From Nitrospiraceae bacterium (GTDB lineage Bacteria; Nitrospirota; Nitrospiria; Nitrospirales; UBA8639): a stretch of 20,541 bases of DNA. The stretch spans positions 1 through 20,541 of the forward strand of contig DOFS01000228.1 of NCBI GenBank assembly GCA_003523945.1, written 5' to 3'. Each line of letters starts with the position of its first letter. The stretch's first letter is position 1. Positions 1,748 to 18,768 of this stretch are shown here, piece by piece. Below the pieces are notes generated by a model that was given only the letters and a program-made list of their open reading frames with translations, did not search any database and had not been told where the DNA came from. A program made the translations under genes and the position numbers.

Positions 1748-2221
1748 TTAAAGAAGTCCCTGAGATTGTAACGCTTTGGCGAGCTTAATGGCTTTCGCGA
1801 CTTCTCCTAAACAGCAGCCCCCGCTCGGATTGGCTTTTTCGCACCAACATTCTCCGGCTTGCACACGTTCCCGAATGATTTTTTCGATATCAGTGTCGTT
1901 CCTATGACGGATGTCTTCCCGGACATCTGCACGCTCATAATCAAAGCAATAGCAGAGTGGGACCGGATCTTCCGTTTCCTTGATCCCGACGCGCACGGTG
2001 AGCATTTCTTTGGTGATCAAATGGTCCCCACATGCCGGGACATACACGGTATCGCAGTCTGGAGCGGGACAAAAATAATAGGGCTGCGGCAATAAATCCG
2101 CTTTGATTTCTGGCTTGAGCAGGCTCTCGATCGTATTCCGCTCGACAGGTTTCGTCGGTTTTCCGTTCATCGGGCAGGTGGGTGAGGCGCCCGTGTGTGA
2201 TGTGACGCAACATTGTGACAT
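1748..2221 (-). CDS. CopZ-type [2Fe-2S]/zinc metallochaperone-like protein lacking the HMA domain
   Basis: The 157-residue protein has 12 cysteines. They include CYC at 90-92, a cluster near 125-127 (CWC) and a CC pair at 136-137 in NPSGGCC. The frame around YFCPAPDCDTVYV and LTVRVGIKETEDPVPLCYC matches my recollection of the N-terminal domain of Archaeoglobus CopZ, which binds one zinc and one [2Fe-2S] cluster. In that protein a C-terminal HMA domain passes Cu(I) on; here the protein ends after the Fe-S domain, so any transfer would need a partner. An AGGAG site precedes the ATG. The gene lies 173 bp after merF and belongs to the merA-merF group. A redox or metal-relay role in the cytoplasm beside MerA is an inference. 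Related proteins are often annotated as putative iron-sulfur metallochaperones. Confidence 0.82.
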   Translation of the reverse strand: MSQCCVTSHTGASPTCPMNGKPTKPVERNTIESLLKPEIKADLLPQPYYFCPAPDCDTVYVPACGDHLITKEMLTVRVGIKETEDPVPLCYCFDYERADVREDIRHRNDTDIEKIIRERVQAGECWCEKANPSGGCCLGEVAKAIKLAKALQSQGLL

Positions 2222-2394
2222 GGGTTTCTCCTGTGACGCTGTAGCTTGAATGTTGTGGCGGCCTATTCCACAGCTTGCCTATTGAATGCCGGTTCCATCG
2301 TTTCTCACAAACCTTTCTGAGAATCTGTTAAAAATACGGCAACCCCATTCATCTTCTGACCCTCAATTGTCCCGCCTTGAGCATTGGCGCGACC

Positions 2395-2712
2395 TCAGCC
2401 ATGACGGTTCTGTTCATCCTTGTCACCTTGGCTCAATGGGGGCTCGGGGCAACAGGATGCTTCACGTGATCGTTGCCGCACAAGGCCATACATAAGAAGA
2501 CCGATAAAAAAAGCCAAGGCAGGGAGAAGCACGAGGTCCAAATAGCCCGTGAGGGCGCCTAGCCCCAAGACCGCCAACAGTCCGACTAAAATCGGGGTAA
2601 CGCAACACAGGGCGACGATTCCGGCGCCGACCATGCCTGTGATCACCAATTTGCGCGAATGCTTGGCTGCGGATGTCGGTTCCTGGGCTGTGGGCTTGGC
2701 TTCATTCATCAT
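2395..2712 (-). CDS. merF: MerF-type mercuric ion transporter
   Basis: This 105-residue protein has two membrane segments, at about 22-50 and 57-80. The first carries the vicinal pair C36-C37 in ALCCVTPILVGLL, and a second pair, C87-C88, follows the second helix (REASCCPE). This is the known MerF plan, in which the two Cys pairs move Hg(II) across the inner membrane towards MerA. The GYLD.VLLPALA.FIGL stretch is also MerF-like. Compared with the roughly 81-residue plasmid MerF, there are about 20 extra N-terminal and 15 extra C-terminal hydrophilic residues. The start at 2712 has AGGAG six bases upstream; a second ATG at 2709 is possible. It lies 61 bp downstream of merA. Confidence 0.92.
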   Translation of the reverse strand: MMNEAKPTAQEPTSAAKHSRKLVITGMVGAGIVALCCVTPILVGLLAVLGLGALTGYLDLVLLPALAFFIGLLMYGLVRQRSREASCCPEPPLSQGDKDEQNRHG

Positions 2713-2773
2713 CCAAACTCCTTTCTTGTTCGTGTGCCGTATCTTTCTCCGGTTTGGGTTTTCCGGTCGCCGG

Positions 2774-4177
2774 TTATTCAGCGCAACAGGACAGTGTGCT
2801 CACATCCTTCTGGAATATTTGTGCGGCCATTCGTATGGACTCCGACATCGTCGGGTAGACATGAATCATGTCAATAAGATCCTGAGTCGTCAGACGGCAC
2901 TTGATCGCTAAGGCTGCCTCATGAACGAGATCCGCCCCCCTATCCGCAACAAGGTGCACCCCGATGATACGATCCGTGTCCTCTTCCACCACCATGTTGA
3001 CAAGGCCTCCAGTTTTATAAATAGCCGCGGCTTTCGGGACATGCTTCAAATCCAGACAATCCGCTTTGACTCGGATTCCCTGTTGTCGTGCTTCGGTGGC
3101 GGTTAATCCTACGGAGGCGACTTCCGGATCGGTAAAGACGGCGCGGGGAATGATGGTGTAGTCCATCCGGCGATGTTTGCCGGCAAGCATGTTCTCCACC
3201 GCAATGACGCCTTCCCGTGCCCCCACGGGGGTCGCCAGTGGCGGTCCGGTCACATCCCCGGCCGCCCAAATACTCGCATGCGTGGTTTGCATTTCCTCAT
3301 TGACTGTGATGAAATTCCGGTCATCTACCTCAACCCATGCCTTGTCCAAGTGTAAGTGATCGGTGTTGGGAACTCGCCCACACGCGATGAGTAATGTTTC
3401 CCCAGTCAGGTCATGAGTCTGGCCATTGGTTGGCACCCGAACAGTCACACCTCTGTCTGATTGACCGATCTGTGCCACTGTGGTGTGTGTGAGGATGTTC
3501 AGGCCTTCATCTTGAAGAACACCTTGAATCGAATGAGCCACGTCTTCGTCAAAGCCCGAGAGGACGTGCGGCCCTCGTACCAGAATCGCGACGTGAACCC
3601 CAAACCGCTGAAACATTTGGCCCAGTTCCAGGGCAATGACGCCGCCACCAATGATGATCATGGAGTCTGGAAGTTTCTTCAGCATAAACGCTTCGGTACT
3701 TGTGAGATACGGGACAGACTCCAACCCGGGAAAAGGCGGGATACAGGCACGTGTACCGGTGGCAATGAGCACCTGCCGGCCAGTCACGATTTCTTCGTTC
3801 ACGACAATTTGTTGAGGGCCGATAAAGTGGCCCTGTCCTTCTATAATGGAAATGCCTTCATGCCCTTGGGCCACATCAAGATATTTCTTTTGCCGAAGAG
3901 TCGTCACCAATTGATCTTTCTGCCCAATCAGATCGGCGAAATCCACCTTGGCCCGGCCGAACGCCAGGCCCCGGTAGCGATTGGGCGCCATGACGGAATG
4001 GTGGAGATTTGCCGCCTCAATCAGATTTTTGCTGGGAATGCACCCGACGTTGACACAGGTTCCACCGATCGGGCCGGATTCGATCATGACCACAGTGGCG
4101 CCTAAATCGGCTGCCTTAATGGCGGCCGCAAACGCGGCGGATCCTGCCCCCAAAATGACGACATCATAGTGACGCAT
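2774..4177 (-). CDS. merA: Mercuric reductase MerA (short form, no N-terminal HMA domain)
   Basis: MerA reduces Hg(II) to volatile Hg(0) with NADPH, using FAD and a redox disulfide. The 467-residue protein begins with an FAD-binding GAGSAA motif and has the redox motif GTCVNVGCIPSK (C41, C46). An NAD(P)H-binding GGGVIALELG follows at about 177, then the second FAD motif AAGDV at 305-309, and a C-terminal dimerisation domain. Features separating it from dihydrolipoamide dehydrogenase are Y157 in PYLTSTEA, Y441 where the dehydrogenases have the catalytic His (VYPTMSE), and the vicinal C464-C465 near the C-terminus (LSCCAE) that hands Hg to the partner active site. No NmerA HMA domain is present, so MerT, MerF or another thiol protein must deliver Hg. 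A GAGGAG site precedes the ATG. Confidence 0.96.
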   Translation of the reverse strand: MRHYDVVILGAGSAAFAAAIKAADLGATVVMIESGPIGGTCVNVGCIPSKNLIEAANLHHSVMAPNRYRGLAFGRAKVDFADLIGQKDQLVTTLRQKKYLDVAQGHEGISIIEGQGHFIGPQQIVVNEEIVTGRQVLIATGTRACIPPFPGLESVPYLTSTEAFMLKKLPDSMIIIGGGVIALELGQMFQRFGVHVAILVRGPHVLSGFDEDVAHSIQGVLQDEGLNILTHTTVAQIGQSDRGVTVRVPTNGQTHDLTGETLLIACGRVPNTDHLHLDKAWVEVDDRNFITVNEEMQTTHASIWAAGDVTGPPLATPVGAREGVIAVENMLAGKHRRMDYTIIPRAVFTDPEVASVGLTATEARQQGIRVKADCLDLKHVPKAAAIYKTGGLVNMVVEEDTDRIIGVHLVADRGADLVHEAALAIKCRLTTQDLIDMIHVYPTMSESIRMAAQIFQKDVSTLSCCAE

Positions 4178-4258: not shown

Positions 4259-4786
4259 TTAATCGTTTCCACGAGCGTGTAAGAGTTGTTCGAATGAATG
4301 CATGACCTCTTCACTGCCCCACGGTCTCGCCCCGAGAACGGTTTCAATTATTTCACCCTCTTGTCCCACCATAATCGTGACCGGAACCCATGAGAGCCGA
4401 TAGGCCCGAGCTACCGTTTCTCCTGGATCTAGTAGGATAGGATAAGTGAGATCCAGGTTTTCTTTTTTTAAAAAAGTTCTCACGGCAGGTTGTCCCTCTT
4501 TATCAAGAGCAATCGCAAGAATCGTGAGTCCTTTGCTCCGAAATTTCTGATATAGCTTTTCGAGTTCCGGCATTTCCAACACACAATCTCGGCACCAGGT
4601 GGCCCAAAAATTGAGGAGAACGACCTTCCCTTTATATTCGTTCAGGCTCACCACCTGACCTTGAATGCTCGGCAATCTGAAGTTAGGGGCATGGTTTTGC
4701 TCTTCTGCCCATACAATCTCAGCTGTTCCAAACATGGGGGTAAGGAATACTAGGCACGTCAGGGTAATGAGTGGATATGCCATCAT
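4259..4786 (-). CDS. TlpA/ResA-like exported thioredoxin-domain protein
   Basis: The 175-residue protein has a signal peptide or anchor (residues 1-27, ending near VWA-EE) and one thioredoxin-like domain of the AhpC/TlpA type. The active site is WCRDC at 64-68 in VVLLNFWATWC, and the cis-proline is in WVPVTIMV. These proteins reduce or shuffle disulfides and thiols in the periplasm, often for cytochrome c or copper-site assembly. WCRDC is a variant of the commoner WCPPC or WCEPC. In this setting it may keep cysteines of MerP or of the upstream CxC proteins reduced (inference). The start is uncertain: ATGs at 4786 and 4783 are adjacent and no clear Shine-Dalgarno is seen, while 78 bp separate it from the upstream gene. 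Confidence 0.88.
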   Translation of the reverse strand: MMAYPLITLTCLVFLTPMFGTAEIVWAEEQNHAPNFRLPSIQGQVVSLNEYKGKVVLLNFWATWCRDCVLEMPELEKLYQKFRSKGLTILAIALDKEGQPAVRTFLKKENLDLTYPILLDPGETVARAYRLSWVPVTIMVGQEGEIIETVLGARPWGSEEVMHSFEQLLHARGND

Positions 4787-4864: not shown

Positions 4865-5584
4865 TTACTCAATTTTGATCATGAGGGGCTCGTCTTCTTT
4901 TGGTTCATGCTTCAAAGCCCGCGGCCCTTTCATGGCCGTCATCACAAAGGTCATCCGAGAGGGAACAGGAATGTCCTTGTTGATGTTGAGTCCGATGACT
5001 CGATACCAAATTCCCCCTTTGGGAGCGGTGTACACAATGCTGGCGCAGAGACACTTTGCCACAACATTGAGCATGGCGATTGAACTGGTATCCCACGACA
5101 GCAGGATATTGCTTTTGGGATTTGGGGCGGGGACATAAAACTGAATGTCTTCTTTTCCCTTCCGGTTATCGACGACCAAGGTAATAAAATAATATCCTGG
5201 TGGAAGAGACACAGGCGCGGTAATCGCTCCTTCTCCGGTATCAAGATTACCCATGATCGGAACTTTCACTGTCTCGACTTCTTCAGGTGGAATGGACTGT
5301 TCTTTCCACTGCATCTTGGGGTCTTGTGGACTGGTCAAGAATTGTTGAATCGGCAGATTCAGCCCTTTTTCCTTTTGAAATACGATCTGGAACGTAAATT
5401 TGCCTTCCTCACGAGGAAATTCGTTGGGATCTGGTGCTTCTCCCTGTGGCGGGAGAATGATGGGTAATTTGTGCCCCATGGGAACATGGGGCCGTACCAC
5501 CAGATTCTCAGAAAAGGCGGAATGAACCGAACCAAGGAAAAGGCTAATGAGCAGGATGAATATAGCAACAATTGAGGTTTTCAT
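4865..5584 (-). CDS. Exported protein with C-terminal CxC motif (unknown function, paralogue-like partner of the next gene)
   Basis: The 239-residue protein begins with a clear signal peptide (MKTSIVAIFILLISLFLG, cleavage near HSAFS). After a Pro-rich stretch at about 28-60, the rest looks beta-rich, with PPGYYFITLVVDNRKGKEDIQF at about 128-150. Its only two cysteines after the signal form CLC at 178-180, followed by YTAP and WYRVI. The next gene upstream has the same arrangement (CMC, then YTVP, then WFRII), so the two share a C-terminal module. I recognise no named family. The CxC after a beta sandwich recalls the Cu(I)-binding CFCF site of Cox11/CtaG, but this is only a resemblance. An AGGAG site six bases before the ATG supports the start. 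It is 27 bp after the preceding gene, so probably co-transcribed. Confidence 0.85.
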   Translation of the reverse strand: MKTSIVAIFILLISLFLGSVHSAFSENLVVRPHVPMGHKLPIILPPQGEAPDPNEFPREEGKFTFQIVFQKEKGLNLPIQQFLTSPQDPKMQWKEQSIPPEEVETVKVPIMGNLDTGEGAITAPVSLPPGYYFITLVVDNRKGKEDIQFYVPAPNPKSNILLSWDTSSIAMLNVVAKCLCASIVYTAPKGGIWYRVIGLNINKDIPVPSRMTFVMTAMKGPRALKHEPKEDEPLMIKIE

Positions 5585-5611: not shown

Positions 5612-6241
5612 TTAATCCACCAAAGAATCGCTGGTTAAGACATGGGTGGCAACCACCCGGGCCCCATTGGGTGTATCAAACGCCGGACCCAGTCGGATGA
5701 TGCGGAACCATCCGGAATGAGGCGGAACCGTATAGGTTTCCCCCAAACACATGCAGTTCATGATTGTCACGGGTTGTAAATTTTGAGGCTCGATATAATG
5801 GGGAATCCCGCGGAACTTTACTGGCTTGTCGGTATTATTAAAGTAAGCCACTTTCACCATCGTGAGTTCTCCCGGTCTCAGGATGAACACCCCATCTTTA
5901 ATAGGTTCTCCAGCAAAGGCATCTTCTATGCTGCACCCACCGACGGTGTGCCATGGGACGGCATGAGCCGCCGGAGGCTTGAGAATCTGAAATTGGCTGC
6001 AGTTTCCATCAAACAGCAAACATTCAAATTTGACTTGCATGGTCACGTAATAGGGTTCTTGCCCAGGAGGTTCTTGCCCCGGTTTGACACGCTTCAACTC
6101 CTCCTCGCCACCTGGCAACCAATCAAAATTTTGCACGACTGGTTGGTCCGTTGAAGTTTTTTGGGATTCGGCCCAAAGGGATACTGGCCATCCCAAAACA
6201 GCACAGATCCCAAATATCACAATCGCTGTGCGGATTTTCAT
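5612..6241 (-). CDS. Exported protein with CxC motif, Cox11-like arrangement (unknown function)
   Basis: The 209-residue protein starts at the ATG at 6241, which has a strong AGGAGG site seven bases upstream; an in-frame ATG at 6265 lacks one. Residues 1-24 are a signal peptide (ending LWA-ES). The mature protein has C74, C81 and C103, then CMC at 163-165. Before this motif comes KVAYFNNTDKPVKFRGIPHY, and after it YTVPPHSGWFRIIRL. In Cox11/CtaG copper chaperones a phrase like N.SDKPV precedes the CFCF copper site at a similar distance, so a related fold is possible. Shared motif with the downstream neighbour: C-x-C-x4-Y-T-x-P-x4-W-[FY]-R-[IV]-I. A periplasmic thiol-metal binding role is inferred. 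No catalytic residues are recognised. Confidence 0.85.
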   Translation of the reverse strand: MKIRTAIVIFGICAVLGWPVSLWAESQKTSTDQPVVQNFDWLPGGEEELKRVKPGQEPPGQEPYYVTMQVKFECLLFDGNCSQFQILKPPAAHAVPWHTVGGCSIEDAFAGEPIKDGVFILRPGELTMVKVAYFNNTDKPVKFRGIPHYIEPQNLQPVTIMNCMCLGETYTVPPHSGWFRIIRLGPAFDTPNGARVVATHVLTSDSLVD

Positions 6242-6315
6242 GATATGTCCTCCTCGATTCTGCATAGATGTTCAGACTCATATTCCCGAAATTTTCCATA
6301 AATTCATTTGAATCG

Positions 6316-6855
6316 TTACCGGGTGAACGAGGCCACGATCTCATCCAAGACCCCATCGATCTCACGTCCCAATCCTTCACAGCCCTTATACGGGGCGAGG
6401 ACAGAAGAAGGGCGATAGTAGGTCACAAGGACGCTCCCATCATTGGCCTCCATCACCACAATACGAAAGGGCATTTCCAAAGCGGCCGCTCCGTCATTCT
6501 TTGCGATGACTTTTCCATAGCGAGGATGAAAAAATTCAATTCCCAGCATGCCTCCCGTTTTCAGGCCCACCAATTTAAGCAATTCTTGATGGTCGGTGTT
6601 TCCCACGATAAGGAGGTCTTTGGATTCAATGGTTTCTTTAATTCGAATGACGGTATCCATAAATGGATATTTCGAGCGGACTACCAGCCGATCCTTGGGT
6701 AACGGCATGGCGATGGACCGGTCTCCAAAGACCATTTGCATGCCGGCCTCTTGTGCGTTGGCCTCTGTGGAAAGCGGTAATCCAAAACTGAGCGCTATTT
6801 GCAGACAAATGACCAAAATACCCGCACGTCTCGGAATGTGTATGAGATGTTGCAT
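6316..6855 (-). CDS. Exported DUF302-domain protein (copy A)
   Basis: The 179-residue protein starts at ATG 6855, with GAGGAG seven bases upstream; longer in-frame starts at 6873 and 6912 lack such a site. Residues 1-34 form a signal peptide (ending ANA-QE). The rest matches the DUF302 pattern: an amphipathic helix (MDTVIRIKETIESKDLLIVG), a GIEFFHPRYG turn, LEMPFRIVVMEANDGSVLVTYYRPSSVL in pieces, and a C-terminal helix ending in LDEIVASF. DUF302 has no established biochemical role; the fold is small alpha/beta and members are often periplasmic. The next gene upstream is a second DUF302 protein with the same RPSSVL/QPSSVL segment, 57 bp away, suggesting duplication. A role in binding or buffering a ligand in the periplasm is a guess from context. 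Confidence 0.86.
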   Translation of the reverse strand: MQHLIHIPRRAGILVICLQIALSFGLPLSTEANAQEAGMQMVFGDRSIAMPLPKDRLVVRSKYPFMDTVIRIKETIESKDLLIVGNTDHQELLKLVGLKTGGMLGIEFFHPRYGKVIAKNDGAAALEMPFRIVVMEANDGSVLVTYYRPSSVLAPYKGCEGLGREIDGVLDEIVASFTR

Positions 6856-6912
6856 TGGCGTTCTCCTCGTCATAAAAGATGGGATCCAACGTTTAGATGA
6901 ATTGAAAAACAT

Positions 6913-7434
6913 TTACTTCACGCCGGCATCAGAGATCTTCACCAGCAACTGGTCAAGCTCGGCCCCTAATCCAGCCAATGATTTGTAATCAGCCAGCACC
7001 GACGAGGGTTGTTTGTATCGGATGATGCCTTTTCCATCCGGACCCTCCCAAATCACGATTTTCAAGGGAATCTCCATAGCCGCTTTCGGGTCATTATCGA
7101 ACACGGGAATGCCGAGGTCGGGGCGATACAGAAAGAACCCTTTGGCACCTGCCCGCTCTCGACCGACCATGCGTTGCATCAGTTGATAATTCGGTTCACC
7201 GACGATGATAAATCGTGCGCCTTTTATGGCATGTTGAATTTTGGCAATCGCAGCTCGAAAGGGAAGCGTCGATTGTTTTTCAATAATGACTCCTCCGGAA
7301 TACTGGTAGTCCTTCGCCAAGACCATGGTGTTCGTTCCATGAAACAGCCCGACGAAGAGTGCTATGCCGAGCATGGTATGCAGCCACGGCATTTTGAGAA
7401 ATGACAGGATTTTGTGTCTGTTACTTTTGATCAT
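6913..7434 (-). CDS. Exported DUF302-domain protein (copy B)
   Basis: The 173-residue product starts at ATG 7434, with AAGGAGG six bases upstream. An in-frame ATG at 7533 would add 33 residues without a good site. Residues 15-40 are a signal peptide or membrane anchor (ending VLA-KD). The DUF302 signature is clearer here than in copy A: GARFIIVGEP, then FLYRPDLGIPVFDNDPKAAMEIPLKIVIWE in pieces, then GIIRYKQPSSVLADY. It has no cysteine in the mature part, so it is not an obvious thiol metal-binding protein. It is the first gene after the RND pump, from which it is separated by 128 bp. That gap holds a small hairpin (7471-7484) but no clear promoter, so read-through from the efflux genes is likely. 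Confidence 0.87.
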   Translation of the reverse strand: MIKSNRHKILSFLKMPWLHTMLGIALFVGLFHGTNTMVLAKDYQYSGGVIIEKQSTLPFRAAIAKIQHAIKGARFIIVGEPNYQLMQRMVGRERAGAKGFFLYRPDLGIPVFDNDPKAAMEIPLKIVIWEGPDGKGIIRYKQPSSVLADYKSLAGLGAELDQLLVKISDAGVK

Positions 7435-7562
7435 CAGAAACCTCCTTGATGTATGGGGTGAAGTGATTGGGTGGTTCGCACCACAGTGCACGTGAAGAAA
7501 CATTCCTTTTCCAGGTTTGGGTTTGCCGAACATGAAAACGTATCCGCATAATTAGGAATTCC

Positions 7563-10500
7563 TTAGGCCGAAAATTCCCCCCGCTTTGGTTCTCCGATGG
7601 AACCTCCCTGAGTTTCAGCTCCGCCGTTTGGGGCGATTTCCGCAAGTGAAGCTGCCTCCACGGGTAAAGGCGACTGGATTCCATCACCGTCCCTTTCCAT
7701 TTGAGCCATTGCTGGGTTTTTTGCGGTGCCGGGGCGTGCCCCAAACACTTTCCCGAGATATTCCTTGGCATCATCCAGCAATGAATACGTGACAGGGACC
7801 ATGATGAGGCTGAGGGCCGTCGAACTGATGATGGCTCCAATTAACGCGGTGGCAATGGGTCGAAACCGGTCCATCCCCGTCGGGGGCGCGAACATGGGGG
7901 GAATAAACGCAGCCACAAAGGTGATCGCCGTCATCAAGACCGGGATGAGCCGAATGGTGCCTCCGCTGATAATCGCGTCCCGTATGGATTTTCCTTCAGC
8001 CCGTTCCTGCTCGACTTTATCGAGCAAATAGATACCGGTTGCCATGACGGCGGCGGTGGCAATCGTCAGACCCCACACGACCGGCGGGGACCAATACATG
8101 CCACGCCAATATAGGAAGAAAATTGCCCCAAAGACCTGCAAGGGTGCATCGACCATAATGGCCATAGTGGCCACCCAGGATTGCGTTTGAAGGAGCAACA
8201 TGAAAAACAAAATAAAGATGGCCAAGGCCAACGCGGAGTAAAGCCGATAGAGGTTGTCCATCATGTCGAGCATCAACCCCTTGGGTTGGACGGTATAGCC
8301 TTTGGGAAGCGTGACCGAAGTCTTGATGCCCATGATGACCCCAGCGGTCGCCATTCTGAGGCCCACACCACGATATTGGGCCAACACGCTCATGGCATAT
8401 CGCAGGTCTTCCTTGTAAATCAGATCGGTTCCATTTTTGAGTTCAATGGTGGCCACGTCCTTCAACGGGATTTGACCGCCATCGGGAAGTTTCAACATGA
8501 CCTGTTTGAGGTCCTCCAGGGCCATGCGTTGATCGGGCTGATAGCGGATCAGCAGACGGTTGTGACGATACCCCTCTTCGGGTTTAAAGAATTCGGAGGT
8601 CATGCCTCCATTCAAGGCGTAGTACGCCTGCATGGCGATTTGTGGGACGGCCAACCCCAATTCCTTGGCACGGACCCGATCGATGTTGAGATGATATTGC
8701 GGCATGGTCATCGACCAACTCGTAAAGGGTTGGACAATTCCGGGGGTACGTTGAGCCACTGCCAACCCCTCTTCACCAATCTTGGCGAGTTCCTCCAAGT
8801 CCAGTCCTTTAATAACCGCTTCCACGGGTGCGCGAGCGGTGTTCACAGGCGTCGCTCCCATTTCCATGAGCCAAAAAGATCGGATTCCAGGGACGGAGGA
8901 GAGCGCTTCGTTCTGGACGCCATCCATAATTTGCCAGATGTCCCGTCCGCTTAACTCCGAACAGGGCCGAAATAAGGAGTCCAAGAGAAAGACGTCCTCA
9001 GCCCATCGGTTATAGAATTCGCAGACGCGCTCTTCCTTATTACTCATGGTGATTTTGAAAAACGCCCGGTTGACGGTTCGAACTCCGTAGCCGGAAAAAT
9101 ACGTGCCAAATGCCGGTTCAGCTCCAATCTGGGTAGAGACCAATTGAATTTCCGGTTGTTGCAGCAAAATTTTCTCCACGCGGGACACGATGGCTTCAGT
9201 TTCCTGGAAGGAGGTGCCGGGCCAGGCTTCGATTTCTCCAACGGCTTGAGCCGTATCTTGAAGAGGCATGCCTTCCCATCCGAGGGTCGGCCAAATTTTG
9301 TAGGCGATATACATCGAACTCATGGCCAGGGCGATGACGATCAACCGATTGTCGAGCGCCAATGCCAACACATGGCGGTATGCCCACACCGTGCCTTCGA
9401 TGAGTTTGGCAAATGGAAAGAGAAGGATTTTCAAGATCCGGTCAACAATATTGGTTTTGCGATCCCGCTGGGGTTTGTAAAGGTAAGCCGCCATCATCGG
9501 ATTGAGCGTCAGGGACAGAAACGCCGAGAAGACCATGGCAAAAATCATGGGCCAGGTCATGCCGCGAAAGCCGGTTCCCATGGTGCCCTGGAGCACGAGG
9601 TTAGGTGTGAGGGCAATCATGAACGTCAGGGCCGAAAGAATATTCGGGAGGAGAATTTCTTGTGAACCATCGATGGCTGCGTCTTTCGGAGTTTTCCCAA
9701 ACTTCAAATGCCGATTGATCACCTCGATAAGCACCACGGAGTCATCCACTAATCGCCCGATGACGAAGGTAATGCCCATCAAGGTGGGTGTGTTGATCGT
9801 TTGTCCGGCCATGGGAAAAAACATGAAGCTGGCGGCGACGGCGGCGGGAAGCGTGACGAGGACGATGAAGGTGGGCGTGATGGTCTGAATGAAAATCAGC
9901 ACCACGATGCCGGTCATGATAAAGGCGAGCATCATCTCGTGCCAGGCATTGGCAATGATGGTTTCCAAAAAGGCTTTGCGATTGTAGGCCACGTCAAACG
10001 TCAGCCCTGGAAACTCCTTGACAAATTCGTCCATCAAGCCTGGCCTGGGATGCGTCGGCAACCCCATGAAATCTTTAATCGCTTTTACCATCCCCGTATC
10101 TTGAGACCCGATAATGTCATCGATCACATCGTAGTCGCTGGCTTCCGGTTGTTTGACGATTTGGATGAGTTGTCCTGGTTTCCCATTAAAGTGATAGGCG
10201 CTGGTAACTTCCGAAAAGGTGTCTTTGACGTTGGCCACGTCCCGCAAGTACACCACTTGATCCTTGACGGTGGCGATGGGAATGTCATTGAGCTTGACAG
10301 GATTCCGGAAGCGTTCATCGGCTCGCACGAGGATGTTGCGCTCCGGGGTTCGGAGCTTCCCGGCAGCGCGACTGATATGCTGCTCTTCCAACGCCTTCTT
10401 GAGATCCATCAACCCCAGCGAATACCCCGCCAGCTTGTCCCGATCCACTTCAACCAAAATGAGTCGCCGCTTGCCGCCAAAGGGAATAGCTGACTGGACC

Positions 10501-11102: not shown

Positions 11103-12248
11103 TTAAAATCCCGATACCACCGCCACCTCTTGGAAATCCGTGAGTCCTCGTGCCCCCTTGGTAATGACCATATCCCCCTCGTTGATCCCTTGAACGATTT
11201 CCACCATGTCGTTGCTGGAAATCCCAAGGACCACCGGCTGTTTCATGGCGACCACGGTATCGGTCGTAAACACCACGGGTTCGTCTTCGATTTGCAAGAC
11301 CGCTTGTCGTGGAATCATGATGGCGTCGGATTTTCGTTCAAGCACTAAGTCCACAACGGCGTACATATCCGCCCGAATGAGGTCCATGGGGTTTTCGACG
11401 ATGATCTCCACAGTGCTTGTGCGGGTCCGAGGTTCAAGTTGAGGAAAGACGACTGACACCCCGGCGTCAATGGAATTGTGGGAAGGCGGCAAAGAGGGAA
11501 ATCGTACCGTGGCTTTCGTCCCAGCTTGTATGTAAGGAAGGTCTTTTCCCGCGACCTTTACCTGGACGCGCATCTGTTGCGTGTCGGCGATATCAAGGAG
11601 GTGTGTGTTGGGATGAACCAATTCACCGGGATTAATCAATTTCACCCGTTTGGTCACCAATCCATTCATGGGGGCAGTCACCTTGGTGTACGACAGGAGG
11701 GTTGTCACCCGCTGTTCCTTGGCTCTGGCGGCATCGAACATCATCCTGGACCGATCCGCCTCGGATTGAGGGATGGCCCCTTCCTTCACCAGCCGCGCAT
11801 CTCGGGCAAATTCCCGTGCCGTAAAAATTCGGTGCGCACGCTGTTCAGCCAAGTTGGTTAATAATTCTCGTTGGTCTAACTTGACGAGCACTTCCCCTTT
11901 TTTGACCGTGTCACCCACATCCACAAAGATATGGTCCAACCATCCCTCCGTGCGCGGGAACACGTTGACGACCGACTTCGGAACGACCGTCCCCGTATAG
12001 GTGACCGTCGAGACCATCTCGCCTCTTGTTGCCGGAGCGACCGCCACGGCCACCGCCCCGGCCAGGGGACTCATTGTCATATCCAGACGGGGAGCACTCA
12101 GATAGGCGGCCACCGAGGTGGCCGAATAATAGATCAACATGAGCAATAGCCCGGTGACGGCGATCTTGCGACCTCTGATCCAACAACCCTTCTGGTCGAG
12201 GAACTGCGCGGATTCTCGCACAGCCTGCAAACGGCTCTTCAGATTCAT
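11103..12248 (-). CDS. Periplasmic adaptor (membrane fusion protein, HlyD family) of the RND system
   Basis: The 381-residue protein links the RND pump to the outer-membrane channel. It has one N-terminal membrane segment (about 28-50) with a cytoplasmic head of 27 residues, then a lipoyl-like half (VVNVFPRTEGWLDHIFVDVGDTVKKGEVLVKLD in pieces, about 90-125). A short helical hairpin (about 130-180) leads to the second lipoyl half (YTKVTAPMNGLV). Beta-barrel and membrane-proximal domains complete it, ending in VVITKGARGLTDFQEV. There are no His- or Met-rich extensions of the kind seen in CusB or CzcB. The ATG overlaps the stop of the TolC-like gene (ATGA), and the pump starts 6 bp after it, indicating translational coupling. 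Confidence 0.94.
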   Translation of the reverse strand: MNLKSRLQAVRESAQFLDQKGCWIRGRKIAVTGLLLMLIYYSATSVAAYLSAPRLDMTMSPLAGAVAVAVAPATRGEMVSTVTYTGTVVPKSVVNVFPRTEGWLDHIFVDVGDTVKKGEVLVKLDQRELLTNLAEQRAHRIFTAREFARDARLVKEGAIPQSEADRSRMMFDAARAKEQRVTTLLSYTKVTAPMNGLVTKRVKLINPGELVHPNTHLLDIADTQQMRVQVKVAGKDLPYIQAGTKATVRFPSLPPSHNSIDAGVSVVFPQLEPRTRTSTVEIIVENPMDLIRADMYAVVDLVLERKSDAIMIPRQAVLQIEDEPVVFTTDTVVAMKQPVVLGISSNDMVEIVQGINEGDMVITKGARGLTDFQEVAVVSGF

Positions 12249-13690
12249 CCTGCAACCTCGATCTGGCCAATGGCCTTTTTCAACGCCATGAGTTGAATCT
12301 GATAGTCGGCCACGGCGGCGGAGAAATTTTGTTCAGCCTGTAATTGAGCCGTTTGTGCATCCAGCAGGGTTTCAATAATGCTTTTCCCTTCCTGAACTTT
12401 CAGCGCTTCGATGCGGAGGACCTCTTTGGCTTCATCCAAGGCTGCCTGCGCGGCGGAAATCCGTTGATGGGCTTCCAGGGTATTCAAATAGGCCGCTTGG
12501 ACTTCCTGTGCCACACGGAGTGTGAGTTGAGTCAACTCATGTTGCAGTTTTGTGAGCCGGATCCGTTCCTGTGAGACTTTGGCGTCAATCGTTCCACCGG
12601 CGAACAAGGGAACAGAGAAAAAGATCCCGGCAAACTGCTGAGCGAACAACGCGGAGTTGTCTCCGGTGATCCCTTGGACTTGCCCCCGGAGGGTGATGTT
12701 GGGAAGGTGTTCCGCGAAGCTGATGCGAATGTTCTTCTCCTGCATGCTCAATGCCTGACGAGTGGCCAGCAATTCGGGCCGACGTTGCTTCGCGCGTTCT
12801 TGCGCTTCTTGGAGGCCGGCGAATGTCTTGAGCACGGGAGAGAGGGTGCGAAGATCGCCCGCCACCTCGAAACGGGAAGTCCCCGCTTCTTCGCCGAGGA
12901 GTACCGCCAGCGCGCTCTGGAGGATCGCTTGTTGGTTCAGCAACCGGATCAGGAGTTGTTCCACGGCGGCCAGCCGCGTGTTGACTTTGAAGGTGTCCAC
13001 CTTGGCGGCTTTTCCCACGGAAAACCGCTGCCGGACGACCCGTTGGGATTCCAACAATTGTTCTTTCGATTTTTGGGCCGCATCGACGAAATCGCGAATT
13101 CTCAAAATGTTGTAATACACGCTTGTGACATTAAAAATGAGTTCGTCTTGGGTTTGAGCCACTCGATTGGCGATCAACTCTCTTCCGAGTTCCTCCAACT
13201 TGATCCGATTCGTAATGCGGCCTCCGGTATAGAGGGGAATGGTAATGCTTCCTCCAAAACTGAACAGATTAAGATTATGTTCTCCCGCCCCATCGCGGAT
13301 GATATTTCCCTGTTTCACAACCAGGGATTTCATGACAAGTGGGAGATTGTCCGGGCCATACGTGAAATCTGAAATTTCCACATCGATCCGCCCGAACCAT
13401 TCTCCTTTCGCTGCGAGAATGCCTTGGTCCGCCACATCCACTTCTTTCCGTATCGCGCTGAGGCCGGGGTTGTGTTTGAGGGCCAGCTTGATGAGATCGG
13501 GTAACCCCATCTTGGGACGGACCATCTGTGAGGTGGTTTCCCTAACACTTCCTGGTTCCTGCCCAAGAACAGAGGAAGAAAACGCTGGTGACCACAATAT
13601 GAGGAAAACCAGCACGCCGACCCAAGCTGTTCCTTCCAAAGACCTCGTGTTTTCCCTACGCACGAAAGAACTCAGTTTTTTACACGTCAT
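12245..13690 (-). CDS. TolC-family outer membrane channel protein
   Basis: The 481-residue product starts at the ATG at 13690, preceded by a purine-rich GGGGGAAG site. An ATG at 13807 in the same frame would add 39 residues ahead of the signal and is not favoured. The hydrophobic segment at about 22-42 followed by VLGQ is the signal peptide. Two long coiled, Ala/Gln-rich repeats follow, each with LxxALxxNP or related helices: GLPDLIKLALKHNPGL near 60-76 and KQRRPELLATRQAL near 300. A GG.I.IPLYTGGRI and a FSVPLFAGGTIDAK segment are the typical beta-barrel strand ends of this family. It exports substrate delivered by the RND pump and adaptor. Its first codons overlap the end of the upstream STAS-like gene by 11 bp. 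Confidence 0.93.
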   Translation of the reverse strand: MTCKKLSSFVRRENTRSLEGTAWVGVLVFLILWSPAFSSSVLGQEPGSVRETTSQMVRPKMGLPDLIKLALKHNPGLSAIRKEVDVADQGILAAKGEWFGRIDVEISDFTYGPDNLPLVMKSLVVKQGNIIRDGAGEHNLNLFSFGGSITIPLYTGGRITNRIKLEELGRELIANRVAQTQDELIFNVTSVYYNILRIRDFVDAAQKSKEQLLESQRVVRQRFSVGKAAKVDTFKVNTRLAAVEQLLIRLLNQQAILQSALAVLLGEEAGTSRFEVAGDLRTLSPVLKTFAGLQEAQERAKQRRPELLATRQALSMQEKNIRISFAEHLPNITLRGQVQGITGDNSALFAQQFAGIFFSVPLFAGGTIDAKVSQERIRLTKLQHELTQLTLRVAQEVQAAYLNTLEAHQRISAAQAALDEAKEVLRIEALKVQEGKSIIETLLDAQTAQLQAEQNFSAAVADYQIQLMALKKAIGQIEVAG

Positions 13691-14021
13691 CGCTTCCCCC
13701 TTCTGCAGAGGACATGATGTGTGGGAAGTCTCCGTGGGAAAACGGCTTGGGCTTTTTGCGTTTTTGTATGAGAACAATCTCACCTCTGCTCTTAATAATG
13801 TGGTCAAACCCAGCCTTCAGAATCCTGGCAGCAAACCAATGAATCGTTTCTAGGCCGCCAATGTCCAAATGAATGGGGTACGAAGAAACAGGAAATGTCT
13901 CCAATTGTTTGAGCAATTGCCATGCAGCCTTTTCACGCAAATCACCCTTGAGAATGACGCAAGGACGACCTCGTCTCGTTGTTACATTCATCTGAAATCG
14001 TTTGAGATTAATGACGCTCAT
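13680..14021 (-). CDS. STAS-like domain protein (degenerate anti-sigma-factor-antagonist type)
   Basis: The 113-residue protein shows a STAS-like order: a strand (CVILKGDL), a helix with KAAWQLLKQLETF, a strand HLDIGGLETI, a helix WFAARILKAGFDHI, and the last strand EIVLIQK. In canonical anti-sigma antagonists the D.SG..FIDSSG segment carries a phosphorylated Ser; here the corresponding stretch reads ETIHWFA, with no Ser or Thr, so phospho-switching is unlikely. About 30 residues of polar tail follow, whose last codons overlap the start of the TolC-like gene. No good ribosome-binding site is seen for the ATG at 14021 or at 13991, so translation may be weak or coupled to the gene 48 bp upstream. 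Other STAS-like proteins accompany transport systems such as Mla, which would suit its place in front of an efflux operon. Confidence 0.65.
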   Translation of the reverse strand: MSVINLKRFQMNVTTRRGRPCVILKGDLREKAAWQLLKQLETFPVSSYPIHLDIGGLETIHWFAARILKAGFDHIIKSRGEIVLIQKRKKPKPFSHGDFPHIMSSAEGGSDDV

Positions 14022-14069: not shown

Positions 14070-14390
14070 TCATAATTCCTTCAAGTAATCCTTGATGCTT
14101 TCTTTGATAAGGTTGGTGTCAGGTATTCCCACCAAGTTTCCCCCGGTCCTGTAGAGCCGGCATTTCAAACCAAAATCCTCTCGTGCCCTCGCTTGAACCT
14201 CGACATCTAAACCATTCACCCGAATGGTGGGCGACCCAAGAAACCGATGAGTCAGTGCGTCTTTATGGGTTTCAACCGGAACAGAATCGATGGACAGATC
14301 AATGCCCTCTTCCTTGAGGACCTTTTTCACTTGTTCCACAGCTTTTGGGTAAGAGGGACAACCATCGAAATAGAACACTTCAATTTTCAT
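14070..14390 (-). CDS. Small thioredoxin-fold protein with FDGCPSY motif
   Basis: The 106-residue protein begins MKIEVFYFDGCPSY, the beta-strand plus CPxx turn of a thioredoxin-like fold with a single N-terminal Cys (C11). It continues with a cis-Pro region, FLGSPTIRVNG (50-60), and C77 in GLKCRLYRTGG. This layout is familiar in small cytoplasmic proteins sitting near mercury or arsenic genes; some relatives have selenocysteine in place of C11. A thiol-mercury or disulfide-handling role is plausible but not established. There is no signal peptide. GGAGG nine bases before the ATG supports the start. It is the first gene after the 355-bp gap with the candidate sigma-54 promoter, so it is probably the leader gene of the efflux operon. 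Confidence 0.85.
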   Translation of the reverse strand: MKIEVFYFDGCPSYPKAVEQVKKVLKEEGIDLSIDSVPVETHKDALTHRFLGSPTIRVNGLDVEVQARAREDFGLKCRLYRTGGNLVGIPDTNLIKESIKDYLKEL

Positions 14391-14451: not shown

Positions 14452-14468
14452 GAACAATATTTGTGCCC
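14452..14468 (-). promoter_or_regulatory. Candidate sigma-54 (-24/-12) promoter of the efflux block
   Basis: Read on the minus strand, 14468-14452 is GGGCACAAATATTGTTC. The consensus is TGGCAC-N5-TTGCW; GGCAC and TTG fit with correct spacing, but the -12 element has GT instead of GC. The predicted start is near 14443, about 53 bases before the ATG at 14390. The adjacent activator gene and upstream dyad support it; the -12 mismatch lowers confidence. Confidence 0.5.
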
Positions 14469-14574: not shown

Positions 14575-14602
14575 TGAAACGGTTAAAACGTTTACCGTTT
14601 CA
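14575..14602. promoter_or_regulatory. 28-bp dyad, likely activator-binding site (UAS)
   Basis: TGAAACGGT (14575-14583) and ACCGTTTCA (14594-14602) form a perfect 9-bp inverted repeat around a 10-bp spacer that itself contains AAACGTTT. A perfect 12-bp palindrome, GTTTCATGAAAC (14569-14580), overlaps its left arm, and CAGGTG/CACCTG (14557-14562, 14601-14606) bracket the whole. The dyad is about 130-160 bp upstream of the predicted start, the usual distance for enhancer sites of sigma-54 activators such as the one encoded next door. Confidence 0.6.
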
Positions 14603-16179: not shown

Positions 16180-16242
16180 AAGTCACCTCTACGCTTTTGA
16201 AAGCAGTTAAGAGTGTTAGAGAACAGATCGTTTCCTCCATTT

Positions 16243-16776
16243 TCAATACACGACAATGTGATCTGCTGATGAGAATAGTTCAACCATTTGATTGAGGGGT
16301 ATTGGGGTGACCGCAGAATCAATTTTGGATAGATTAATATTATAGAGCAGCATCATGGTTTGATTCCCGTAAATTTCTACACCCAGACTTTTGAGAAATT
16401 GAAAATAGTCTCCGTAATTGTGTGGCACCTTCTCAAGGGATACTTCCATTTGTTCGGCAAGACTCTGTCGTTCTCGTTCGGGGAGGGTGGCACGGTCTAG
16501 GGCGGTGCTGCCCGAACCGAACAGGCTATTGAACCACCCAAACCCTTTGGTCACAGACGTGACCGCGCTGGCATCCACTAATATTTTGACTTGGTGACCG
16601 GCTTTCGTCATGGCCCAGACGACATTCGGGACTGCACAAATTTGTGCGTCGTCTTCAGCTAGAGAGGTTTTCATATGGATCAAGATTTGGGCTGCTTCTC
16701 CGTGGGGTATATGGCCGAATAATCCCCAAGCAAGTAAGGCTCCCACCACCATAAATTTCTGAATCCAGTTTCCCAT
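16243..16776 (-). CDS. Exported DsrE-like protein
   Basis: The 177-residue protein has a signal peptide (1-29, ending GEA-AQ) and a DsrE/F-like alpha/beta fold. It opens with the strand ILIHMKTSLAEDDAQICAVPNVVWAMTKAGHQVKILVDASAV in pieces (about 30-75) and ends in a strand-helix-strand (LLYNINLSK, ADHIVVY). Cytosolic DsrE/TusD proteins carry persulfide sulfur on a Cys; C47 is the only Cys of the mature protein and lies early in the first helix, so equivalence is uncertain. Exported members of this family are of unknown role. Handling of sulfur or thiols in a mercury-stress setting is an inference. GAGGAG lies before the ATG. The gene is 147 bp after the AhpD-like gene, and that gap contains two hairpins. 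Confidence 0.8.
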   Translation of the reverse strand: MGNWIQKFMVVGALLAWGLFGHIPHGEAAQILIHMKTSLAEDDAQICAVPNVVWAMTKAGHQVKILVDASAVTSVTKGFGWFNSLFGSGSTALDRATLPERERQSLAEQMEVSLEKVPHNYGDYFQFLKSLGVEIYGNQTMMLLYNINLSKIDSAVTPIPLNQMVELFSSADHIVVY

Positions 16777-16917: not shown

Positions 16918-16923
16918 CTGAGA

Positions 16924-17295
16924 TCAGTGGCTGCAACAGCCTGCTCCAGCTAAACTGTGTTGTCCTGTAACATGCCCTTTGTAGACCTCAAAGGCTTTTA
17001 ACGCCCACTCTTCTCCAGGGCATCCTTGCATGGTCATGGCCACATCTAAGAATTCGATAAATTCTTCCTGGGAAATTCCTTTGTCACAGGCCATTTTCAC
17101 ATACGCGTCAATACAGGGTTCGCACCGTAGGGCAATAGAGATACTCATGGCCGTCAACAGTTTGTACTTGGCGGGCACGGCTTTTTCTCGATATGCCTCT
17201 TCGCGCATTCGCATGACTCCACCGGTCACCTTGGGGCTTAATCGCCTCAATTCTTCGAAGGTCGACTCCGGTGTGTTCGTTTCGACTTCATGCAT
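16924..17295 (-). CDS. AhpD-like carboxymuconolactone-decarboxylase-family protein with C-terminal CC
   Basis: The 123-residue protein is an all-helical CMD/AhpD-family member. The family motif is at 57-64, RCEPCIDAY, with C58 and C61 in a CxxC that in AhpD works as a disulfide reductase site. Helices before it (GGVMRMREEAYREKAVPAKYKLLTAM) and after it (DKGISQEEFIEFLDVAMTMQG) match the usual single-domain length. Oddly, the last residues are GAGCCSH, adding a vicinal Cys pair and a His that ordinary members lack, much like the tails of MerA and MerF. A thiol exchange or Hg-binding role in the cytoplasm is an inference. AAGGAG lies seven to nine bases before the ATG. It sits 167 bp after merP. 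Confidence 0.88.
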   Translation of the reverse strand: MHEVETNTPESTFEELRRLSPKVTGGVMRMREEAYREKAVPAKYKLLTAMSISIALRCEPCIDAYVKMACDKGISQEEFIEFLDVAMTMQGCPGEEWALKAFEVYKGHVTGQHSLAGAGCCSH

Positions 17296-17403
17296 CAGCA
17301 GGACTCCTTTCCATTTTCTGAGATTAGGTTAATTGGGTGGCGGCCAACTCCCCAAATGATGTGTTTACTGTTACTCAATCACTGATGGGTCCATGGTGAT
17401 GTT

Positions 17404-17453
17404 CCAGAAATAGTTCTGGTTACCCAACTGGGAGCACCGGATACAATGCTCCC
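17404..17453. repeat. Two hairpins downstream of merP
   Basis: GGGAGCA (17430-17436) pairs with TGCTCCC (17447-17453), a perfect 7-bp stem; CCAGAA (17404-17409) pairs with TTCTGG (17414-17419) around ATAG. Both follow merP within 60 bases on the minus strand. Without a U-run they are weak terminators at best and could lower expression of the genes beyond or stabilise the merT-merP message. Confidence 0.5.
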
Positions 17454-17462
17454 CTTAGGGGG

Positions 17463-17876
17463 TTATTTGAAAAGTGAAGACCAGAAATCCCGGAACACAT
17501 TGCGCTCTTTCTTTTGAATGGTTAGGGAACCATTGGGAATAACGGTGGCCTTGTAAGTGTCGAACACAGTACTGGCACCTCTGATGGCTTGCACCAATTG
17601 ATCAGGATTGCCTTGCCCTGGCTCAACCGTGACAATGGCTCCGCCACTCGGATAACTCACCTCGGCAGATTGAACCCCGGAAACGGACATCAGGGCGGCA
17701 TGCACATCTTTTTCACAACTTGCGCAGGTCCACCCATCAATTTTCAGCGTGATGATTTCCCCTGAGGGAGCACTCGCAGAGAGTTCTTCCGAGGCCGCAA
17801 GAGCGCCCCGAGCCAATATGCCCTGTGTGACGAGAAACATTGCTAGAAACATCAATGGAAACAGTCTTCGTATCAT
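17463..17876 (-). CDS. merP: MerP-type periplasmic mercury-binding protein
   Basis: MerP binds Hg(II) in the periplasm through two Cys and passes it to MerT. The 137-residue product has a signal peptide (1-28, ending ALA-AS) and an HMA domain from about 40 to 105 with the binding motif GWTCASCEKDV (C51, C54; classical MerP has GMTCxxC). The chain follows the ferredoxin-like order of the family (VHAALMSVSGVQSAEVSYPSGGAIVTVE in pieces). About 30 residues follow the usual MerP end (DTYKATVIPNGSLTIQKKERNVFRDF in pieces). The ATG at 17876 has AAGGTG upstream; a longer in-frame start at 18197 would run through merT in another frame and is rejected. It starts 14 bp after merT. Confidence 0.92.
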   Translation of the reverse strand: MIRRLFPLMFLAMFLVTQGILARGALAASEELSASAPSGEIITLKIDGWTCASCEKDVHAALMSVSGVQSAEVSYPSGGAIVTVEPGQGNPDQLVQAIRGASTVFDTYKATVIPNGSLTIQKKERNVFRDFWSSLFK

Positions 17877-17890
17877 GGTTTCACCTTCCT

Positions 17891-18337
17891 TTATTTGAAA
17901 ATTCCCAGCCAATAGGGGGACAGAACAAAAAAGAGGGTCAGCACCGTAGCCAACCAGAGAAAGACAACCGATTTCGAGCGTATTCGTGAATCCGTACAAT
18001 GTGAGTCTGAGGCACAAGCGGCTTTGGGCTTGCGATACACGAGATAAAATCCGGCTCCAATCGCCACCATAGCGACAACAATGAAAAAGGGTCGGTATGG
18101 GACAAAGGCTTTCAGAACTCCTGCTGTATTCGCTAAAAAGCCTGTGGCTCCAACACCTACCCCAAGCCCAGCAAACAGCACAGGCCCAATACAGCAAAGA
18201 GAGGCGAGAAAGGCCGCAATGATTCCACCAACCGAAGCGATGGAGGCAGGCTCCTTGAAATTTTTTGCGCCTTCACTTTCTTGAAATGAGGGTTTCTCCG
18301 ATATAATTACCGCTCCAGAATTTGATTTCTTATGCAT
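17891..18337 (-). CDS. merT: MerT-type mercuric ion inner-membrane transporter
   Basis: MerT imports Hg(II) handed over by MerP. The 148-residue protein has three membrane segments: about 34-58 (with the vicinal C48-C49 in ASLCCIGPVLFAGLG), about 81-100 and about 122-145. The loop between the second and third carries C108 and C114 (AACASDSHC), the second Cys pair of the family. The phrase FVPYRPFFI matches the conserved LEPYRPIFI of plasmid MerT. A polar N-terminal extension of about 30 residues makes it longer than the usual roughly 116 residues. GAGGAG precedes the ATG. It lies 47 bp after the CGRTHC membrane protein and 14 bp before merP. Confidence 0.95.
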   Translation of the reverse strand: MHKKSNSGAVIISEKPSFQESEGAKNFKEPASIASVGGIIAAFLASLCCIGPVLFAGLGVGVGATGFLANTAGVLKAFVPYRPFFIVVAMVAIGAGFYLVYRKPKAACASDSHCTDSRIRSKSVVFLWLATVLTLFFVLSPYWLGIFK

Positions 18338-18384
18338 GGTCTCCTCTCATGTTTCGTATAATCACTCATTAGAACATTCTCACC

Positions 18385-18768
18385 TCAATAATTCGCAGGG
18401 AAAAACTTTCCCCAGATCCGTTCCGTGACAATCCACAAGAACCCGGTTCCGCCTATGAGGGCAAGGCCTAACCACATCCAACCATTCGCTCCAAGGTCTA
18501 CAATTTGGAATCCATGCAGGACCATCACGATGGCCAGCAGGAGGAAATACGGTCCCGTAAAATAACAATGAGTCCGTCCACACCGTGCGGCATTGACCAC
18601 GCACGCAACTCCTTTCCACAGAAGCGCACCAGTCCACATGATCGTTCTCGTAAAGGGGTCTACAAAAACTCCAACGATTAACAGTGCTCCCGGCAATCCC
18701 CATAGAAATGCATAGGTGTAGGAATCACTGACCCAATCTTTCAATTCAAAAGATTCTCTGTTTGGCAT
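18385..18768 (-). CDS. Small membrane protein with CGRTHC motif (unknown function)
   Basis: The 127-residue protein has four likely membrane segments at about 20-36, 43-60, 70-86 and 97-115. Between the second and third lies ACVVNAARCGRTHCYFTGPYF with C56, C63 and C68 and H67. It is the first gene of the mer array, just below the MerR-type promoter. I know similar sequences only as conserved hypothetical membrane proteins of metal-resistance regions. It does not match MerC, MerE, MerH or MerF by its Cys placement. A role in metal transport across the inner membrane is plausible from position and from Cys residues at a membrane edge, but is not shown. No clear Shine-Dalgarno precedes the ATG; the transcript would have a short leader of about 30 bases. 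Confidence 0.82.
   Translation of the reverse strand: MPNRESFELKDWVSDSYTYAFLWGLPGALLIVGVFVDPFTRTIMWTGALLWKGVACVVNAARCGRTHCYFTGPYFLLLAIVMVLHGFQIVDLGANGWMWLGLALIGGTGFLWIVTERIWGKFFPANY

Follow-up and report, generated by a model that had tools for sequence, protein, structure and literature searches.

The stretch of DNA analysed here (the window), the complete contig G000:C202 (20,541 bases) of a Nitrospiraceae draft genome that is 83.8% complete and 4.9% contaminated, carries a minus-strand run of 20 genes extending from mem127, encoding a mer-associated membrane protein (beginning at 18768), to a TPR protein gene (ending at 2), with merR divergent from it. We propose, with a probability of about one half, that this array, which some Nitrospirales carry, is a detoxification locus of two units directed at a thiophilic metal, most likely Hg(II). 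In our best reading it would join capture of the Mer type to RND efflux and periplasmic thiol proteins, with reduction by MerA being optional. The proposal is based on the conserved gene order, a mer-like MerR with its promoter, and mem127 homologues adjoining merA elsewhere; on a sigma54-like site and a palindrome that are the best-conserved parts of their intergenic gap, in genomes most of which contain RpoN; and on a cysteine-bearing insert specific to the array pumps, an invariant CxC motif in two neighboring proteins, metal genes near all of the pump relatives inspected, and a genuine MerA.

Gene order and linkage

Copies of the array, searched for by tblastn with the window proteins, were found on a second contig of the same genome (C108), in NPIRA02 (G033) and NPIRA04 (G420), in Candidatus (Ca.) Nitronereus thalassa (G031), in the ERR2094167 metagenome-assembled genome (MAG; L008), and twice in G034, where each copy is cut by contig ends; a ninth copy, on contig C182 of NPIRA04, lacks the middle. 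Ca. N. thalassa and the NPIRA MAGs of Nitrospirales belong to the same family as the window genome. The conserved block order is merR, divergent; mem127-merT-merP-cmd-dsrE-like-sigma54 activator; and DF-STAS-like-outer membrane factor-adaptor-RND permease-two DUF302-CxC2-CxC1-TlpA-(merA)-merF-CopZ-N-TPR. The merT and merP genes precede the pump in five of the six copies whose upstream side is covered (window, C108, NPIRA02, NPIRA04, the C35 copy of G034, and Ca. N. thalassa, the last lacking them), and merF and the CopZ-N gene stand behind the pump genes in all six copies that cover the tail (window, C108, Ca. N. thalassa, NPIRA02, NPIRA04, and the ERR2094167 MAG). In the compact C35 copy of G034, merT, merP, and the dsrE-like gene lie immediately ahead of the outer membrane factor gene, so that the mer–pump link looks more than a chance neighborhood.

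The initial annotation had read the array as a mer operon interrupted by a tripartite efflux pump. That description is not supported, since merA is the variable gene and lies in what appears to be a second unit, with a sigma54-like candidate promoter of its own. The combined scheme of import, reduction, and efflux in that annotation is supported insofar as mer transport and pump genes travel together, reduction not being general, and the concern raised there that the middle genes might mostly occur without mer genes is borne out for merA and not for merT, merP, and merF. A tree of four tail genes (CxC1, tlpA, copZN, and tpr) sets the window and NPIRA02 apart from the four merA-less copies (98% ultrafast bootstrap), a split that fits a single gain or a single loss of merA. 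In the pump-gene tree, NPIRA02 groups with C108 and Ca. N. thalassa (100%), so segments of the array have been swapped. In the C182 copy of NPIRA04 (L063, 342-5354), merR-mem127-merT-merP is joined to CxC1 fragments, tlpA, merF, and the CopZ-N gene with the pump region missing; this copy has either suffered a deletion or been misassembled.

The head unit and its likely MerR-type promoter

The element ahead of mem127 (Table 1) is likely a MerR-type promoter, as found in alphaproteobacterial mer operons: the MerR-promoter pattern has one match in the window, compared with 0 in 100 shuffles, and the dyad within it is present in all six copies with the merR–mem127 gap covered (window, C108, NPIRA02, NPIRA04, its C182 copy, and the C152 copy of G034); Ca. 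N. thalassa also has it, at a separate merR/merT pair. Three annotated mer operons, on Roseovarius, Sphingopyxis, and Phaeobacter plasmids, carry a near form of the dyad in their merR promoters. MerR contains Cys97, Cys132, and Cys140 (numbering of the listed open reading frame, ORF), the latter two in the C-x7-C spacing of the MerRs from three alphaproteobacterial mer operons. The membrane protein Mem127 has no Pfam family at E 0.001, and its homologues are encoded immediately 3′ of merA in 3/3 plasmid loci inspected, on these same three plasmids. Marine and alphaproteobacterial mer operons of this kind share with the array a three-Cys MerR, the CTGTAG..CTACAG dyad, MerT, MerA, MerP or MerF, and Mem127, whereas merA of the array is optional and is placed, with the RND pump and the CxC proteins, in a second, apparently sigma54-driven unit. 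Both the promoter and the cysteine pattern of a mer operon head are present, the score of MerR against its equivalog model (discussed below) being the exception. The MerP-like protein scores 33.7 bits, under the MerP equivalog cut-off of 92.6. The dyad-bearing merR/merT pair in Ca. N. thalassa, apart from the array, lies at 4389-5183 of L064 (G031:C1:75000-84000), a stretch in which the window merA is unmatched.

The second unit and its sigma54-like element

A second conserved element, reading GGGCACA-N5-TGTT, lies between merT/merP and merA/merF, in the gap ahead of the DF gene, and is a conserved candidate promoter of the sigma54 type. It was judged by conservation across copies, since the plain pattern search gave no excess over chance. 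In a 370-column alignment of the gap from six copies, at least 13 invariant columns out of 16 occur only at this site and in a block at and just past the right half of a palindrome situated about 120 bp upstream; the palindrome and the six bases following it contain 26 invariant columns of 34, compared with 149 of 370 across the gap. The palindrome may be the binding site of the sigma54 activator encoded next to the head genes, whose PAS domain contains a C-x8-C-x3-C motif (window 15844-15885), kept in 6/6 copies examined, that is possibly a metal or redox sensor. RpoN is found in four of the five array genomes, that of the window among them, the exception being a 64% complete genome. The array is, from these conserved elements, likely to have two promoters, one of MerR type and one sigma54-like. 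The gap between the activator and DF genes extends to 1.5 kb in C108 (L009, 5537-7033) and 2.7 kb in NPIRA02 (L060, 10681-13398), and extra genes may sit inside.

The RND pump and its cysteine insert

The RND permease falls under the cut-off of every one of the 13 NCBIfam models that it matched, including the CusA/CzcA model TIGR00914 (307.5 bits, cut-off 701.45). It carries, at about AcrB 637-640, in the porter domain, an insert of 26 residues with Cys692 and Cys712, which is present in 7/7 array pumps and in 0/8 comparison pumps (five cyanobacterial pumps, CusA, AcrB from residue 202, and the Ca. Manganitrophus RND); the two cysteines are the sole Cys residues of the pump in six of the seven array copies. 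The pair may bind metal or may form a disulfide. Among the matches listed, the best-scoring plasmid relatives are five cyanobacterial plasmid pumps (Nostoc, Tolypothrix, Stanieria, Leptolyngbya, and Acaryochloris; 33–35% identical), which share VDDS in transmembrane helix 4 (TM4) but have neither the insert nor the Cys pair. Metal genes are nearby in all five, and in the incomplete annotation listed for their surroundings no gene bears the name of a mer transporter. Synechocystis CopBAC was rejected as the nearest pump system, its CopA pump being just 24% identical.

The array resembles CusCFBA and CzcCBA in its three-part pump, adaptor, TolC-type channel, and neighboring genes for periplasmic proteins. 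However, the permease is only 22% identical to CusA, its TM4 reads VDDSVVLIE (VDDS in place of VDAA), the insert is absent from CusA, and the CusA methionine triad, presumably Met573, Met623, and Met672, is unconserved, the residues aligned there being Glu, Ile, and Pro. The best matches of the permease among solved structures are drug pumps.

The CxC proteins

CxC1 and CxC2 are, by profile comparison, homologous, and they are rare. Both cysteines of the CxC2 motif are invariant across 15 aligned rows (8 of the 10 database matches were used, short P0005 and P0010 being omitted), and an invariant Cys-x-Cys is common to both proteins in a joint alignment of 18 chosen rows; 12 of 36 matches were omitted from the CxC1 alignment. 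Neither protein matched Pfam at E 0.001, and the sole Pfam name obtained for CxC2 was DUF7652 (5/15 rows, best E 0.049). Out of about 5.8 billion proteins the joint profile retrieved 53, for none of which a Pfam domain is listed, in a search that reaches only proteins having short words in common with the query. In a phylum sample of 395 genomes, the CxC1 and CxC2 profiles matched two each, those of CxC2 including the window genome itself; CxC1 matched 5 of the 48 genomes of the family and none of the 19 other genomes of the genus, and these genus-mates without a match point to horizontal acquisition or misbinned contigs. A 92% identical CxC1 occurs in a named Nitrospirales MAG, and a single-protein search of genome contigs with CxC2 yielded three loci, with none found in plasmids. 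The initial annotation had called both proteins exported CxC proteins; the motifs lie where Table 1 places them, and export is probable as judged by eye from the N-termini. A part of CxC2 distantly resembles NCBIfam LIC11469 (Leptospira Lsa20; 45.1 bits, well under its cut-off of 150), which says nothing on adhesion. The predicted model of CxC1 was unusable (pLDDT 31), and each CxC profile gave one chance-level match against solved structures.

MerA as an optional member

The window MerA is, according to its equivalog score and C-terminal Cys pair, a genuine mercuric reductase, and mercuric reductases also lead its matches among solved structures. Its close homologues (76–100% identity) are confined to 2 of the 48 family genomes, in both cases within the array, the remaining family matches at E 1e-60 being 31–36% identical. 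MerA does not occur wherever the locus does. The merA of NPIRA02 and the merF of Ca. N. thalassa are each split over two frames. A MerA-like flavoprotein gene behind CopZ-N in the C108 copy (L010, 7826-9160) was rejected as merA, the product being of disulfide-reductase type (286.7 bits, cut-off 454).

Predicted mechanism and alternatives

In the predicted mechanism, MerR would sense the metal and switch on the first unit, mem127-merT-merP, which probably also includes cmd, the dsrE-like gene, and the gene of the sigma54 activator. The second unit, with its sigma54-like promoter and activator palindrome, would then yield the pump, DUF302, CxC, and TlpA proteins together with MerF and CopZ-N. 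The periplasmic CxC and MerP-like proteins may bind the metal through their cysteine pairs, which TlpA and other thiol proteins would hold reduced, and the metal may be handed to the RND pump, where the clade-specific Cys pair of the porter domain would receive it for expulsion via the outer membrane factor. The fraction entering the cytoplasm would be passed by MerT and MerF to CopZ-N and, in the two copies with merA (window and NPIRA02), to MerA for conversion to Hg(0). More specifically, and only tentatively, we speculate that this is a cysteine-based RND metal pump, in which the Cys pair of the insert would receive Hg(II), or another metal of the bis-thiolate kind, from the CxC proteins, so that periplasmic mercury is expelled instead of, or besides, being imported and reduced.

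Several observations weigh against the proposed detoxification locus or its assignment to mercury. The score of MerR is highest for TIGR02051 among the metal MerR models, but at 133.9 bits is under the cut-off of 150.9, and that for the CueR model (126 bits, cut-off 147.4) also falls short, so that the metal of MerR is unsettled by profile alone. The merA gene is found in two of the six copies covering its slot (window and NPIRA02), the other four slots being empty, or in two of seven with the broken C182 copy included; and no close MerA was found in NPIRA04 (86% complete), Ca. N. thalassa (98%), or G034 (64%), all of which carry the array. Import plus reduction is therefore not the general function of the array, as NPIRA04 and Ca. 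N. thalassa indicate, and Hg is accordingly a likely rather than an established substrate. In Ca. N. thalassa the array has neither the MerR/merT/merP head nor a close activator; this genome contains the sigma54-like element, yet no activator homologue at E 1e-150. At the -12 position of the sigma54 consensus stands GC. The element in the gap has GT instead, and the plain sigma54 pattern search of the window gave a count not above chance. The first Cys of the CxC motif was unseen in one of 25 rows of the wider CxC1 alignment (P0045, whose end is apparently out of frame), the Cys pair of the insert could be a structural disulfide, and three of the five pump relatives inspected are near cupredoxin or multicopper oxidase genes, which also fits copper.

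The last point leads to the alternative that survives best, in which the pump unit would serve copper or silver efflux, with the CxC proteins being Cox11-like periplasmic Cu(I) carriers reduced by TlpA, CopZ-N the copper chaperone of the cytoplasm, and the mer genes co-selected neighbors. The head unit favors Hg(II), while the pump surroundings elsewhere and CopZ-N leave room for copper or silver. Resemblance to the Cox11/CtaG copper chaperone extends to the CxC motif (CMC/CLC in the array proteins, CFC-F in Cox11) and to weak structural and profile signals: apoCox11 ranked 4 and 1 in fold comparisons of the predicted CxC2 model (pLDDT 55.5) with weak scores, and profile comparisons gave E 0.066 and 0.18 without a useful alignment with the wider CxC family. 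With no PF04442 match for the 15 CxC2 rows up to E 10 (HMMER filters), Cox11 was kept as a weak lead; a search for Cox11 itself (E 0.001) across 118 genomes from the phylum sample gave no match. Further, the genes of the array encode neither a copper ATPase nor a multicopper oxidase or cupredoxin, the permease lacks the methionine triad of CusA, and MerR has a Cys at the position of a Ser in E. coli CueR. We consider this copper or silver alternative rather unlikely, albeit the most serious competitor of the mercury-directed locus.

A non-metal thiophile as the pump substrate (reactive sulfur, persulfides, or a thiol-reactive organic compound), with the thiol proteins as redox or sulfur carriers and the PAS activator sensing redox, appears improbable. 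The thioredoxin-like, CMD, and DF proteins, the conserved cysteines of the PAS domain, the disulfide-reductase-like flavoprotein of C108, and the adjacent Asp residues in TM4, which together with the drug pumps as best solved structures are unlike a classic metal pump, would all agree with such a role, but the constancy of merF and CopZ-N and the near constancy of merT and merP argue against it, and the DsrE label is unconfirmed. Still less probable are two unrelated cassettes, mer and pump, adjacent in a metal-resistance island and separately controlled: the two promoter-like elements, the retention of the pump unit without the head in Ca. N. thalassa, and the exchange of pieces seen in the different grouping of pump and tail genes are countered by merF and CopZ-N following the pump in every tail-covering copy, by the abutment of merT-merP-dsrE-like on the outer membrane factor gene in C35 of G034, and by the location of the likely activator gene of the second unit beside the genes of the first.

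If the cysteine-based pump is real, the locus would be a mer system with an efflux core and MerA as an add-on. Bacterial resistance to mercury is commonly attributed to import and reduction, and efflux tied to mer transporters would alter that picture; a dedicated three-part efflux system could also explain mer transport genes in merA-less genomes. The insert and the rare CxC family offer concrete residues for tests, and nitrite oxidisers are important to nitrogen cycling where sediments and reactors are exposed to metals. Should the substrate be copper, the locus might still be a thiol-based alternative to the methionine-based Cus pump. Among the matches listed in open-licence PMC (titles and abstract starts) for mer with RND or DUF302, DUF302 with RND and copper, merT or merF without merA, Hg efflux with RND, and mercuric reductase in Nitrospira, there was no description of the array. 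The main text of the Ca. Nitronereus paper does not contain "mercury", "merA", "heavy metal", or "efflux" (PMC10579370); in two further papers, DUF302 is placed at the edge of a metal-gene cluster (PMC7760498) and mercuric reductase is mentioned in Nitrospina (PMC3578206).

Gene inventory of the window

Profile scans bear out the gene set and the co-direction given in the initial annotation, all 20 genes being on the minus strand; the distance of about 13 kb that it gave between merT/merP and merA is 13.3 kb from the end of merP to the start of merA, and its RND-adaptor-TolC set, two DUF302 proteins, AhpD-like protein, and two thioredoxin-like proteins (TlpA and DF) match family profiles. Its "DsrE-like" label, on the other hand, found no Pfam match up to E 10 and no solved structure up to E 1. 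The divergent MerR, the sigma54 activator, the CopZ-N-type metallochaperone, and the mer-associated 127-residue membrane protein were absent from it. The DF-family protein has Cys11 and Cys77 and no CxxC, and the STAS-like label is unconfirmed, with no Pfam match up to E 10. Rfam (gathering thresholds) and tRNA scans of the window gave no match, and general promoter and terminator scans gave counts at or below chance.

Table 1 Features of the window (positions from its first base)
Feature	Position	Strand	Basis
merR, likely start Met20 of listed ORF 18806-19273	18863..19273	+	TIGR02051 133.9 bits
Likely MerR-type promoter TTGTAT, 19-bp spacer, TATCAT; dyad CTGTAGTTACTACAG at 18816-18830	18806..18836	-	sequence and conservation
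mem127, mer-associated membrane protein, three Cys, 127 residues	18385..18768	-	homologues adjoin merA elsewhere
merT, Cys48-Cys49, Cys108, Cys114	17891..18337	-	PF02411 70 bits, cut-off 32.9
merP-like HMA protein, 137-residue form, CASC (CxxC 51-54)	17463..17876	-	PF00403
CMD/AhpD-like protein, CEPC (CxxC)	16924..17295	-	PF02627
So-called DsrE-like protein, family unconfirmed	16243..16776	-	kept in array copies; no Pfam or structure match
sigma54 activator: PAS, AAA+, Fis-type helix-turn-helix	14746..16179	-	PF13426, PF00158, PF02954
Palindrome TGAAACGGT-N10-ACCGTTTCA, candidate activator site	14575..14602	-	conservation in six copies
sigma54-like candidate promoter GGGCACAAATATTGTT	14453..14468	-	13/16 columns invariant in six copies
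DF-family protein (thioredoxin-like)	14070..14390	-	NF049942 118.9 bits, cut-off 70
STAS-like protein	13680..14021	-	kept in array copies
TolC-type outer membrane factor, listed ORF; true start probably downstream	12245..13807	-	PF02321
Periplasmic adaptor (MFP)	11103..12248	-	TIGR01730 192.4 bits, cut-off 94.9
RND permease, 1177 residues, unclassified subfamily	7563..11096	-	PF00873
Porter-domain insert, 26 residues, Cys692 and Cys712	8949..9026	-	array-specific versus comparison pumps
DUF302 protein b	6913..7533	-	PF03625
DUF302 protein a	6316..6912	-	PF03625
CxC2, CMC at 171-173	5612..6265	-	C171 and C173 invariant
CxC1, CLC at 178-180, CxC2 homologue	4865..5584	-	hhalign E 8.9e-8
TlpA/ResA-type thioredoxin, CRDC	4259..4786	-	PF00578
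merA, optional in array, no N-terminal HMA domain, C-terminal CC (464-465)	2774..4177	-	TIGR02053 533 bits, cut-off 454
merF, two CC pairs	2395..2712	-	NF033565 78.7 bits, cut-off 50
CopZ-N-type metallochaperone, 12 Cys	1748..2221	-	NF047645 132.3 bits, cut-off 100
TPR protein closing array, runs past window edge	2..1729	-	kept in array copies

Surroundings of the array and a related locus

Beyond merR, the window contains orf148 (19681-20127), encoding a His-rich (6%) protein without a family match that is 95% identical in C108. The flanks of other copies carry further genes of metal type: distant RND, adaptor, and MerR genes in Ca. N. thalassa (L011 and L012), the same with a MerF-like gene in NPIRA04 (L049), and MerR-, MerT-, and adaptor-like genes in the ERR2094167 MAG. 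Such flanking genes suggest a metal-resistance island. On a Ca. Manganitrophus plasmid (CP114554.1; L069, 11437-21071), merR-merA lies beside a CusA-type RND gene, FixH, and TolC, constituting another pairing of merA with an RND pump in Nitrospirota.

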